A stretch of DNA of 43,388 nucleotides from Zetaproteobacteria bacterium CG_4_9_14_3_um_filter_54_145. Its GTDB lineage: Bacteria > Pseudomonadota > Zetaproteobacteria > Mariprofundales > Mariprofundaceae. The translations under genes and the position numbers were made by a program. The stretch is taken from assembly GCA_002791575.1 (NCBI GenBank), contig PFXI01000042.1, positions 1-43,388 on the forward strand, written 5' to 3'. Positions 35,836 to 42,513 of this stretch are shown piece by piece; positions within the stretch are counted from its first letter, which is position 1; every line of letters begins with the position of its first letter. The notes beneath the pieces are model-generated. The model saw only the letters and a list, made by a program, of their open reading frames with translations. It ran no database searches and had not been told where the DNA came from.

Positions 35836-36511
35836 TCAATACCAGCCATGCTCCCTGAACGATAGTACATCTCTGCCGGCAATCAGGAAATGATCGAGGA
35901 TTTTCAGCTCCAGGGGCTGGCAGGCTTCGGCCATGCGACGGGTTAGCTCAATATCCTCGGCACTGGCACGGGCTGTGCCGCCCGGATGATTGTGAAACAG
36001 GATCATCCCTCTGGCATCAAGCTCCAATGCTCGCTTCATCAGATTGCGCGGATAGACGGCCGTTCGATCCACTGTACCTTCAAACAGGATTTTTGTCGAT
36101 CAGCAGCCGGTGCTGCTGATCGACAAAAATAGCACCTAAACACTCCATACCCCTGCCCTGAACCAGCAAACGCAGATAGGCACTGACCCGCTCGGGTCGA
36201 TCGAAGAGCTGCCTGCCCGGCAGGTCGGAGGCGAGGTAGCGCACCTCCACCTGGCGGATCAGCGACAGAAACAACGCGCCGCCCTCACCGATGCCCTGCA
36301 CCTGCTTCAATTCGGCAGATTGTGCATCAAATACACCGGCCAGCGTCTTGAACTGTTTGAGCAGCCGCTTGGCCAGCGGCTTCACATCTATACGCGGCAG
36401 CGCGTAGCTCAACAGCAACTCCAGCACTTCATAATCATGAAAGCCGTCAAATCCACGTTGTGCAAATCGATCCCTGAGTCGCTGGCGATGTCCCCTGATG
36501 CTCTCATCCAT
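35836..36511 (-). pseudogene. radC: radC (JAB-domain DNA repair-like protein), frameshifted
   Basis: The first part (36511 to about 36090) encodes 'MDESIRGHRQRLRDRFAQRG' to 'FVDQQHRLLIDK'. The second part, one base out of frame, gives 'ILFEGTVDRTAVYPRNL', then 'HNHPGGTARASAEDIE' with the JAMM His-x-His and Asp. Removing a single A from the A5 run at 36090-36094 (T run on the plus strand) restores one 224-residue RadC of normal length. As written, translation stops shortly after the run, before the metal-binding motif. It is either a true pseudogene, a phase-variable site or a sequencing error. Divergent from the dehydrogenase gene. Confidence 0.88.
36089..36130. repeat. Perfect 18-bp palindrome at the radC frameshift
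   Basis: ATTTTTGTCGATCAGCAG (36089-36106), loop CCGGTG (36107-36112), CTGCTGATCGACAAAAAT (36113-36130). Both arms lie in the coding sequence (FVDQQ...LLIDK). The extra base that shifts the radC frame is the one that makes the T5/A5 ends match. Confidence 0.9.
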
Positions 36512-39600: not shown

Positions 39601-41185
39601 CGGCATGCGCAGCGTGCTCGGTATTACGGATGAGGCATTGGCAGGCGAGGCACTGATTCGCGCCATCCTTACCGCTCCCGTTGACCTGTTGTATAACGGC
39701 GGCATCGGCACCTATGTCAAGGCAAGTAGCGAAAGCCATGCCCAGGCCAGCGATCCGGCCAATAGTGCTGTACGCGTGAATGCTGCCGATCTGCGCTGCA
39801 GGGTGATCTGCGAAGGTGGCAATCTCGGCTTTACCCAGAAGGCGCGCATTGAATATGCACAGGCCGGCGGCCTGATCAATACCGATGCCATGGACAACTC
39901 CGCCGGTGTCGATATGTCCGATCATGAGGTGAACCTGAAAATCCTGTTCAATGTGGCGGCCGTGCGTATGCCACATGGCAAGCGCAACCGCCTGCTGGTA
40001 CAACTAACCGGGGCAGTTACCGAGCAGTGCCTGGCCGACAATCTACTGCAATCACGCGCGCTGACGCTGGCCGAGCTTGATGTCGAGCTCTATCCACCGC
40101 GTATGCAGCGGCTGCGCGACGGTCTGGCCAATCAGGGCTGGCTGGATGAAGCGGTTGCCCCCGGCATTTATGACAATGCACTACTGCACCTGCGTCCGCA
40201 GCTCGCCATACTGCTGGGTCAGGAGAAAAACAGGATTCACGCGCGCCTCTCCGCAACCGGCTTTGATGCCAGCAGCGCATTCAGTGAACAGGCCTTGCTC
40301 GACTATTTTCCGGCTGCCCTGCAGCGTAAATTCGCTGCTGCCTTTTCAACCCACCCGCTGAGCAATGAAATTATCAATACGCAGGTAACCAATCATATCG
40401 TCAATCACCTGGGTCTGTGCGCGATCCATCATCTGGAAACACTGATCAACGCCTCAACCGGCAACATTGTTGAGGCGCTGCTGATTGCCGAGAAACTGCT
40501 CGATACAGCAGCGCTGCGCGAAGCGATCTGGCATGAGGTGACGGATGTGGAGCAGGCTGTCCGGCTTCAGCACGGGCTGCAGGAGTCACAGATGCTGTTT
40601 GCCGAAAACCTGTTGCGCCTGTGCCCGGTTGAACAGCTGGATCAGGCGTGGCTCAGTGCACAACAACGCGGGCTGCACCACTTCCGTCAACGCATGGCGG
40701 CCGATATAACCATTGATGATACCCTTGCATCATCAGGTCTGACGGACGGCCACCTTCGCCATCTGGCCATGATGCCGCAACTGGCTCAGTCAGCCTGCGC
40801 CGTGCACCTGGCCTCGTCGATGCATATCAGCCTGAGCCGTTGCCTGAGTGCCAGCAGGGCGTGTCTGTCCCTGCTGCCGTTTGACGAAATGGAGCAACCG
40901 CTTCGCTCTCCCGAATGGGCTGATGATGATGCGCATAATCTGCGCCGTGAGTGGCTGCACCGGCTGACTCTGCTGCAGAGCCGTGCCATTGCCCAACTGC
41001 TGAACAGGCCCGGCAACCAGTTTGATACGCTTGCCGCCAGTTTGTGGAAGCAGCATCCCTACTGGCAGGAGATTGAAACGTTCCAGCAGCAGATCAATGA
41101 TCCGAATGCTTCTCAGGAGGCCCGCCGCATGCGCCTGATGCTGGCTTTAACGCGCCTGGAGGCAATTGTCGATAATCAGGGCTAG
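36623..41185 (+). CDS. gdhB: NAD-specific glutamate dehydrogenase, large (GDH-180-like) type
   Basis: This is a 1,520-residue cytoplasmic enzyme that oxidises glutamate to 2-oxoglutarate and ammonia with NAD. The long N-terminal half carries ACT-like regulatory domains. The catalytic part (from about residue 735) shows 'PIARGGIRYSDRPADFR', 'QTIKNGQIVPTGSKGGFV' with the conserved lysines, 'DKGTASFSNDANNEA', 'VGIGDMGGDVFGNGM' (nucleotide fold) and 'CEGGNLGFTQKARIEYA'. The length is slightly below the usual ~1,600; the start at 36623 is the first good ATG. It is a lone gene and ends in an inverted repeat shared with the convergent glycosyltransferase. Confidence 0.95.
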   Translation: MRHLRRQLIDLLDQARLQHGMDHIQPRLMAALVQDFYALLPKGKTKRITMRARTLTHGDLHRHIFTIRCPDQAFYLDAIKSYLLRQGIQPIGQQTMVARMPCGPDGCALELHNPDIHDEDNFMFIAIHISATLTPAAEPLSLDMRAILKAVDLSVQDFAEMRTQIAQHVARLMPEKPDAAALLDWINDNHYLYFGLTQKDKRLGLMRNRKVLGRVVPGLLEEVEACEMAVEPGIEWLNLAACQHYLYSAASIEVVRVCWTGSGGELDQALIIGHFSRSASFANASYLPIMAARWRTLANDQLLRHSAFYRREVRTLFDRMPKRILLATRPEDWLLPLKGIIDLADPLQLVTSILPSVHGNLDSLLVTIATKRFGPVVMQRVMDTLAAAGIPTHGYESFGIGPHRIILIGIERTHQEIEAATLNNQIRRCIVFWKDLAKAEVLRHAATLNIPETLQELEQIPSLYQDLFAPAQFTRDVKMRQRLLANARTCVHISQKASLADIVELYIYSLEQPSLGKLVDILRLFALDPIQESLVPFGSAPDCAENPGYGCIHISALTCRAPRHLDREDIQRLQRGLTLVLNGEADHDAVNALMIAAALDIDELAILITLRNHLVQLLPDAALLPLTDMMLRHAEVSRCLQRLFAARHLPDMPDSFLAETRSSFHQAMQHVASLTDDRWFRMLAELVEAGLRTNAFIRERGEPIAIKIDTKRLPFVRHPLPWREIFIHGVQVEGTHLRAGPIARGGIRYSDRPADFRTEVLELMSTQTIKNGQIVPTGSKGGFVIRGGQGPAFILQQYHSFIRTLLALTDNLVDGVLQPPEGMRIAENDANDPYLVVAADKGTASFSNDANNEAQAAGFWLDDAFASGGRHGYDHKVVGITARGAWICATHLFARLGLDACADAISCVGIGDMGGDVFGNGMLLNPALRLVAAFNHRHIFLDPEPDAAKAFSERQRLFTAGPAAGGWDAYDPRAISNGGGVFERSSKQITLSAGMRSVLGITDEALAGEALIRAILTAPVDLLYNGGIGTYVKASSESHAQASDPANSAVRVNAADLRCRVICEGGNLGFTQKARIEYAQAGGLINTDAMDNSAGVDMSDHEVNLKILFNVAAVRMPHGKRNRLLVQLTGAVTEQCLADNLLQSRALTLAELDVELYPPRMQRLRDGLANQGWLDEAVAPGIYDNALLHLRPQLAILLGQEKNRIHARLSATGFDASSAFSEQALLDYFPAALQRKFAAAFSTHPLSNEIINTQVTNHIVNHLGLCAIHHLETLINASTGNIVEALLIAEKLLDTAALREAIWHEVTDVEQAVRLQHGLQESQMLFAENLLRLCPVEQLDQAWLSAQQRGLHHFRQRMAADITIDDTLASSGLTDGHLRHLAMMPQLAQSACAVHLASSMHISLSRCLSASRACLSLLPFDEMEQPLRSPEWADDDAHNLRREWLHRLTLLQSRAIAQLLNRPGNQFDTLAASLWKQHPYWQEIETFQQQINDPNASQEARRMRLMLALTRLEAIVDNQG

Positions 41186-41267
41186 GAGTCTGTCGGACTT
41201 TGGGTGATCGTAGCGAGCAGGAGCAGCTTGCCAAGTAGACTTCTCCTAAGTCCGACAGACTCCTAGC
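41181..41267. terminator. 20-bp perfect inverted repeat between two convergent genes
   Basis: GCTAGGAGTCTGTCGGACTT (41181-41200) is exactly complementary to 41248-41267, with a 47-base loop. Both convergent stop codons, of gdhB and the glycosyltransferase, lie in its arms. It could act as a bidirectional terminator or mRNA end-protector. The arms and the small size also suggest a REP- or MITE-like repeat. Confidence 0.6.
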
Positions 41268-42513
41268 TGTTCTTAGCCTCAATCCAGCGCGACATAAACT
41301 CCGTGCTGCGCTGGTGATGATGGCGCAACATCATGCCGGTAAAGTTATGCAGCCGGTGCTGACGCAGTCCCCCCCTGATGGCGGTGATGCGGGCAATCAG
41401 CTCGCGACCGTTGCGCTCGCCATCGAACAGCCTGCGCACAATGGCATGGCCCTGCTCACGCGCTGCCAGCCAGGCTGACTCATCGCCATAGAGTGATACG
41501 GCGGCAGCGGCAAAAGCTTCAGCATCATCGGCTACCGCGCCACTCCATGGTAGCCCCCCGCACATCCCTTCCACACCGATGCTGGTTGTAACATTCGCTG
41601 TGCCATTGAGCATCGCATCGGCAAGCTTGGTCTTGATACCGGCACCAAAGCGCAACGGCGCCAGACAGATGCGCGCGCTCTGCATGACCCTGTGCACATC
41701 ATCTGCGCGGCCGAGCACCCGGAATCCTGTTTTGCTATCGTTGAGCGCCGTGACTGCGGGCGGCGTGTAAGCACCATAAATATGCAGCTCCGCATCGGGC
41801 AGTGCGCGCCTGATCAGCGGCCATATCTGCTCTTTCAACCAGCGTACTGCATCGAGATTCGGCGCATGGCGAAAATTGCCAATAGTGACAAAGTGTTGGC
41901 GCGCATCAAAAGCGGGCGTTGGCCGGCCAATATCCGCCTGATCAAACATGAAGGGGGAGCAGTGCAGCAGGCCCGGACTCACTGCAAAGTGCTCTATCAG
42001 CAACGCCATCTCGTAATCGGAGACCAGAATGGAGAGATCCGATCGCAGCAGTGCAGCGATCTCACGCAGCGCCAGATCGCTGTGTAGCTCTTCTGTTGCC
42101 AGCCCTTGTACGACACTGCGGCTGACTTTAAAACTGTTCTGCCGCGCCTGACGCAGGCAGTGCAGATCGATGGTTTCGACAATACGCATCGCGGCCGGGC
42201 AGGCCTTTTCCACCCGCCAGCCGAACTGCTCCTCCATGGTAAAGCGGTCGAAGAGCACGATATCGGGATTTAAATCGGCAACAAAGCCATCAAAGCTGCT
42301 GTCATTCACGGCAATGTCGGCACAAATGATGCCGAGCTCCCGCAAATCGAACGAATAGTCGTTCGGCGCTGCCGTCGATGCATAGGTGAGCTGCCAGCCC
42401 TGCTGCACGAAAAGGCGGGCAAGCTCCAGCATGCGCAGCCCCGCACCCGAAGAGGCCGGTTCCGGCCAGTGACTGCCGATCATTAATACGCGCGTATCTG
42501 CTGCTGATTCCAT
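41263..42513 (-). CDS. Glycosyltransferase (GT4-like, GT-B fold)
   Basis: This is a 416-residue protein. The N-terminal domain has 'VLMIGSHWPEPASSGAGLRMLELARLF' (acceptor side, split over about 9-35). The C-terminal donor domain has 'FVTIGNFRHAPNLDAVRWL', 'LHIYGAYTPPAV' and 'CLAPLRFGAGIKTKLADAML', where the E of the usual EX7E motif is replaced or shifted. It is close to GT1/GT4 family proteins of cell-surface sugar synthesis. Cytoplasmic. The DUF5672 gene upstream on the same strand is also sugar-transferase-like, so this edge may be part of a surface-polysaccharide locus that continues outside. Confidence 0.82.
   Translation of the reverse strand: MESAADTRVLMIGSHWPEPASSGAGLRMLELARLFVQQGWQLTYASTAAPNDYSFDLRELGIICADIAVNDSSFDGFVADLNPDIVLFDRFTMEEQFGWRVEKACPAAMRIVETIDLHCLRQARQNSFKVSRSVVQGLATEELHSDLALREIAALLRSDLSILVSDYEMALLIEHFAVSPGLLHCSPFMFDQADIGRPTPAFDARQHFVTIGNFRHAPNLDAVRWLKEQIWPLIRRALPDAELHIYGAYTPPAVTALNDSKTGFRVLGRADDVHRVMQSARICLAPLRFGAGIKTKLADAMLNGTANVTTSIGVEGMCGGLPWSGAVADDAEAFAAAAVSLYGDESAWLAAREQGHAIVRRLFDGERNGRELIARITAIRGGLRQHRLHNFTGMMLRHHHQRSTEFMSRWIEAKNS

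Follow-up and report, generated by a model that had tools for sequence, protein, structure and literature searches.

The window, a stretch of 43,388 nucleotides, corresponds to contig C90 of a draft assembly that comprises 124 contigs and 2.85 Mb and is 99% complete. Its host belongs to Mariprofundus, a genus of marine iron-oxidizing Zetaproteobacteria. The genome holds a single copy of radC, which lies on the minus strand of the window and is divided between two reading frames. The 5′ part of the gene (36080 to 36511) encodes the UPF0758 N-terminal domain (PF20582) in a frame that reads MDESIRGH...FVDQQHRLLIDKNPV and terminates at a TGA codon at 36082 to 36080. The 3′ part (35836 to 36079) encodes the RadC-like JAB domain (PF04002), which resumes past the TGA in the other frame (...VDRTAVYPRNLMKRALELDARGMILFHNHPGG...) and retains an intact HNHPGG motif. 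Both domains scored above their cut-offs, each on its separate frame, which identifies the gene as a member of the RadC (UPF0758) family. Moreover, the out-of-frame downstream half has been under strong purifying selection, with a dN/dS of 0.07 relative to Mariprofundus ferrooxydans PV-1. Among the window genes that could be aligned to PV-1 or M. erugo, radC is the only one that is disrupted.

The N-terminal frame ends right after the second arm of an inverted repeat within radC. The repeat is perfect and consists of two 19-bp arms (36089 to 36107 and 36112 to 36130, minus strand) separated by a 4-nt loop that reads ACCG in the sense of the gene (36108 to 36111). An earlier account made from the letters of the window (here called the sequence-only reading) had correctly described a perfect palindrome at this site but had given it arms of 18 bases. 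In gene sense, the coding-left arm, ATTTTTGTCGATCAGCAGC (36112 to 36130), encodes a conserved I-F-V-D-Q-Q motif, and the coding-right arm, GCTGCTGATCGACAAAAAT (36089 to 36107), is its exact reverse complement. The palindrome folded with a z-score of -9.0 as DNA and formed a very stable structure as RNA (-38.7 kcal/mol, z-score of -4.6). Hairpin scans took in 1.5 Mb of the same genome and 0.5 Mb of PV-1, and the radC hairpin was the longest hairpin other than terminators in the 53% of the Mariprofundus genome that was scanned. A repeated or mobile palindrome was considered and rejected, as the palindrome core occurs once in the whole genome and the region is just 1 base longer than in relatives.

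For comparison, 38 radC relatives were aligned, nearly all of them from Zetaproteobacteria; all comparisons are between extant sequences at the level of species. A tree built without the palindrome placed the window radC beside that of the sister species PV-1, with M. erugo next. The coding-right arm is 1 base shorter in every one of the 38 relatives, and the best alignment against all of them puts the single extra base of the window radC at plus-strand position 36099, a T in gene sense, with an ambiguity of a few bases. When aligned to PV-1, a gap at this T left 4 mismatches, whereas a gap placed in the A-run at the end of the arm left at least 9, and none of the 38 relatives has an A-run at the site. 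The sequence-only reading was right that radC is out of frame by one net base, but the base is not an extra A in an A5 run, and the ancestor that it proposed, with A4 in one arm, finds no counterpart among the relatives.

The arms of the window radC pair at 19 of 19 positions, whereas those of PV-1 pair at 11 of 19 and those of the 38 relatives range from 4 to 11 of 19. The PV-1 arms are mismatched at 8 of 19 pairs and not by the single base (T5 against A4) that the sequence-only reading expected of the arms without the extra A. Relative to PV-1, all 8 of the mismatched pairs were altered and all 11 of the paired ones were unaltered. The right arm differs from PV-1 by at least 4 substitutions and a 1-base insertion and the left arm by 2 to 4 changes, all of which restore pairing, and the longest hairpin arm in the radC of any relative is 8 bp. 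The number of substitutions at the palindrome is nonetheless ordinary (8 of 41 positions versus 19.5% across radC, both relative to PV-1), and an excess substitution cluster was dropped as an argument, as divergence at the palindrome equals the gene average. The strength of the argument thus lies in the perfect pairing of the arms and in the inverted-copy test described below, not in clustering.

If one arm had been copied from the other, the recipient should resemble the inverted template more than it resembles its own orthologs. The right arm of the window radC had on average 4.7 differences in 19 positions to the inverted left arms of the relatives and 9.7 in 19 to their orthologous right arms, and it was nearer to the inverted left arm in comparison with each of the 38. 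When the same test was run on each relative in turn, only one of the 38 was positive, the sister PV-1, and by a small margin. The left arm retains F-x-D-Q-Q, the F, D, Q, and Q of which are conserved in 37 to 38 of the 38 relatives, and the right arm departs from conserved T and Q/E residues. Because the left arm keeps its conserved residues and the right arm has lost them, we infer that the left arm served as the template and the right arm as the recipient. Two neighboring changes in the left arm (ACC to GTC) agree with the former right arm, and strict one-way copying alone does not account for them. Together with the slight inverted-copy signal of PV-1, this match makes plausible an earlier conversion of lesser extent, perhaps with the right arm as template.

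The features that characterize quasipalindrome mutation were found at the site: extant relatives carry an imperfect inverted repeat, mutation has made the arms perfect such that every changed pair restores pairing, and the new arm copies the other, with the insertion falling inside the copied tract. As judged from these comparisons, the left arm was very probably copied in inverted form over the right arm in a quasipalindrome-templated conversion that broke the frame. The radC of this Mariprofundus species would first have held an imperfect inverted repeat. During replication, a growing strand, or a repair strand, would have quit its template at this position, paired with the neighboring arm, copied it, and then switched back. 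As a result, the coding-right arm would have become the exact reverse complement of the left arm, and the conversion would have introduced several substitutions together with a net gain of one base, putting radC out of frame at the cost of its JAB/JAMM half. Most of the conversion may have occurred in one recent event. A likelihood ratio computed from PV-1 alone favored a template switch over point changes by 10^0.15 to 10^3.15, for switch rates assumed to lie between 1e-6 and 1e-3 per site and with rough indel and geometry priors of our own. Arm copying by strand switch had been proposed in the sequence-only reading, and that part agrees with the nearness of the right arm to the inverted left arm in all 38 comparisons and with the hairpin arms of at most 8 bp in relatives; the copying was not confined to a single base of the A-run, however, but appears to have rewritten the whole right arm.

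Other explanations would account for parts of the same evidence. An A5 run sits at the end of an arm and the two frames are separated by one net base only, as would be found if slippage or phase variation had added one A to a pre-existing palindrome. A homopolymer error or phase variation had indeed been named as alternatives by the sequence-only reading, but either would cover the insertion only and would account for neither the substitutions nor the perfect pairing. Moreover, a phase-variable tract should already be present in relatives, and the run was found in 0 of 38; the gap aligns elsewhere (9 versus 4 mismatches); and a run of five A residues was judged short for phase variation. We consider slippage or phase variation very unlikely. 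An artefact of sequencing, library preparation, or assembly, in which the hairpin or the run gave a wrong consensus in the 124-contig assembly, is also unlikely, if somewhat easier to entertain: the assembly is a draft, polymerases can falter at strong hairpins in vitro, and the downstream half is still constrained, as if the gene were really intact. An error would, however, have to yield several substitutions and an insertion that together exactly copy the other arm, and no further frameshift occurs elsewhere in the window, as far as it was aligned. In addition, radC is also broken in a different Mariprofundus whose genome is a single contig, which indicates that loss is tolerated.

A hairpin as stable as this one could also have been selected as a functional RNA or DNA element, whether a terminator, a regulator, or a recoding signal that acts through frameshifting or restart. 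Consistent with a restart, a GTG at 36072 with GAAGG 4 nt upstream follows soon after the TGA, and a separate JAB fragment could conceivably be made from it, in keeping with the constraint on that half. The GTG and GAAGG fall within conserved EGTVDR codons that are common to intact relatives, however, and the signal is thus considered incidental. No U-tract was found 3′ of the radC stem, which is followed by CCUGUUUGAAGG in gene sense and by AGCACCUAAA on the other strand, and a Rho-independent terminator was rejected on that basis; likewise, a regulatory RNA was rejected when the hairpin gave no match in Rfam. As no standard slippery heptamer lies in the needed direction and the hairpin is conserved in none of the relatives, we regard a selected element as highly improbable. 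A chance build-up of ordinary point mutations together with a single indel would have had many changes to draw on, given the high divergence from PV-1 (19.5%), but is scarcely credible. Base composition predicts 2.5e-6 perfect 19-bp hairpins of this kind for the window and 9e-5 for 1.5 Mb, and when codons were resampled from the relatives and one random insertion was added, the arms never exceeded 10 bp in 40,000 draws. We conclude that slippage, phase variation, artefact, a functional hairpin, and chance each explain less of the evidence than templated mutation does.

The low dN/dS of the downstream half and its intact HNHPGG motif suggest that the frame was broken recently, or else that the assembly is wrong at the site. 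The break would have abolished RadC function by cutting the JAB/JAMM half off the protein. RadC is encoded by a non-essential gene, and its loss seems tolerable because another Mariprofundus species has independently broken radC and two draft genomes among those searched gave no radC match. The independently broken gene (L022), located near 305342 to 305710 of the one-contig genome (G001:C1), carries a frameshift due to a TGGA tandem duplication located approximately 30 nt upstream of the corresponding position. A frameshift at a different base in related strains had been put forward as an observation that would speak against templated mutation, and the only such frameshift is this one. As it comes from a different species and represents an independent break, the templated-mutation reading is not refuted.

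Most perfect hairpins with arms of at least 13 bp in the 1.5 Mb of the same genome resemble terminators. One that lies in coding sequence, at the end of pdxA (contig C17, L121:14807-14840), is a perfect 15-bp hairpin with arms CATGGTTATGGCCAT and ATGGCCATAACCATG. By direct comparison with PV-1, in which 13 of 15 positions pair, all 15 pair here; at two pairs both arms were altered, and at a third only one arm was. The change is in frame and replaces alanine with methionine where relatives show alanine or glutamate, a pattern in the aligned sequences that makes pdxA a likely second templated conversion. A perfect 14-bp hairpin was also observed in the signal peptide of a 496-amino-acid open frame (contig C25, L137:17606-17639), and PV-1 differs from it at 7 of 14 pairs. 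The latter hairpin is possibly a third case, in a stretch too divergent to argue from. When the genome was scanned against PV-1, inverted repeats outnumbered mirror repeats 34 to 12 for arms of at least 9 bp and 8 to 0 for arms of at least 11 bp; the counts take in terminators, however, and we do not claim from them that the rate is raised.

Most of what is known of quasipalindrome mutation comes from reporters used in the laboratory and from comparisons in yeast, apes, and viruses; template-switch mutation associated with quasipalindromes was reportedly described by Ripley in 1982. In Escherichia coli, a thyA hotspot and the lacZ QP5 and QP6 reporters of the Lovett laboratory, the latter with an 18-bp quasipalindrome, have been studied (PMC7202029, PMC6357072). 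As in those systems, an imperfect coding repeat was made perfect in radC, with one arm as the apparent template and with indels and substitutions found together, and the 19-bp arms of radC are similar in size to the 18-bp lacZ reporter. Unlike the reporters, the radC case is natural, belongs to a lineage of Zetaproteobacteria, and is known from species comparison alone. In coding genes of Saccharomyces cerevisiae, homogenization of inverted-repeat arms makes multinucleotide mutations (PMC8604942). The likeness lies in coding repeats that turn identical through clustered changes, a pattern that pdxA fits in frame; the radC case differs in being bacterial, in being frameshifted, and in having arms of 19 bp rather than the 7 to 16 bp tabulated for yeast (PMC8604942). 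Template switching can also create RNA hairpins (PMC8794818). The radC stem would likewise owe its origin to copying and not to compensatory point changes, but unlike those hairpins it sits in, and breaks, a protein gene and gives no sign of selection on the stem. We conclude that the radC event is a natural bacterial example of an already known copying error and not a new system. At radC, the sequence itself reveals the template and its product, the indel that came with the copying, and the gene that was broken, and the case illustrates that one copying error can mimic several independent substitutions and a frameshift.

SbcCD cleaves hairpins. In profile searches, SbcD (TIGR00619) had no match in this genome; it was over the cut-off in 3 of 23 genomes, and most of the genus, PV-1 among them, lacks it; its absence alone therefore cannot explain the radC site. 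Exonuclease I (PF08411) had no match in this genome or in the other Mariprofundus genomes searched. As exonuclease I is also rare in controls, being found in 1 of 14 control genomes, its absence here is ordinary. The large subunit of exonuclease VII (PF02601) is present. Exonuclease I of E. coli is described as aborting template switching in work attributed to Laranjo et al. 2017 (cited in PMC6357072). The missing SbcD and exonuclease I point to a testable link between absent hairpin nucleases and quasipalindrome mutation, although their connection to the radC event is suggestive only. It is doubtful that in Mariprofundus lineages without SbcCD and exonuclease I frequent template switching might perfect inverted repeats stepwise, as at radC, pdxA, and the signal peptide, and so provide a regular source of multiresidue protein changes and gene loss.

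Two further repeats were observed. A long imperfect inverted repeat at 41165 to 41283 of the window (39-nt arms, 79%, 41 nt apart) lies between the ends of a large NAD-glutamate dehydrogenase-like gene and a glycosyltransferase-like gene and is perhaps a bidirectional terminator. Similar perfect hairpins with a GCGTACGG/CCGTACGC core lie close to where an open frame ends in both this species (L161:12626-12660) and PV-1 (L222:7280-7312), and the pair probably represents a conserved terminator or site.
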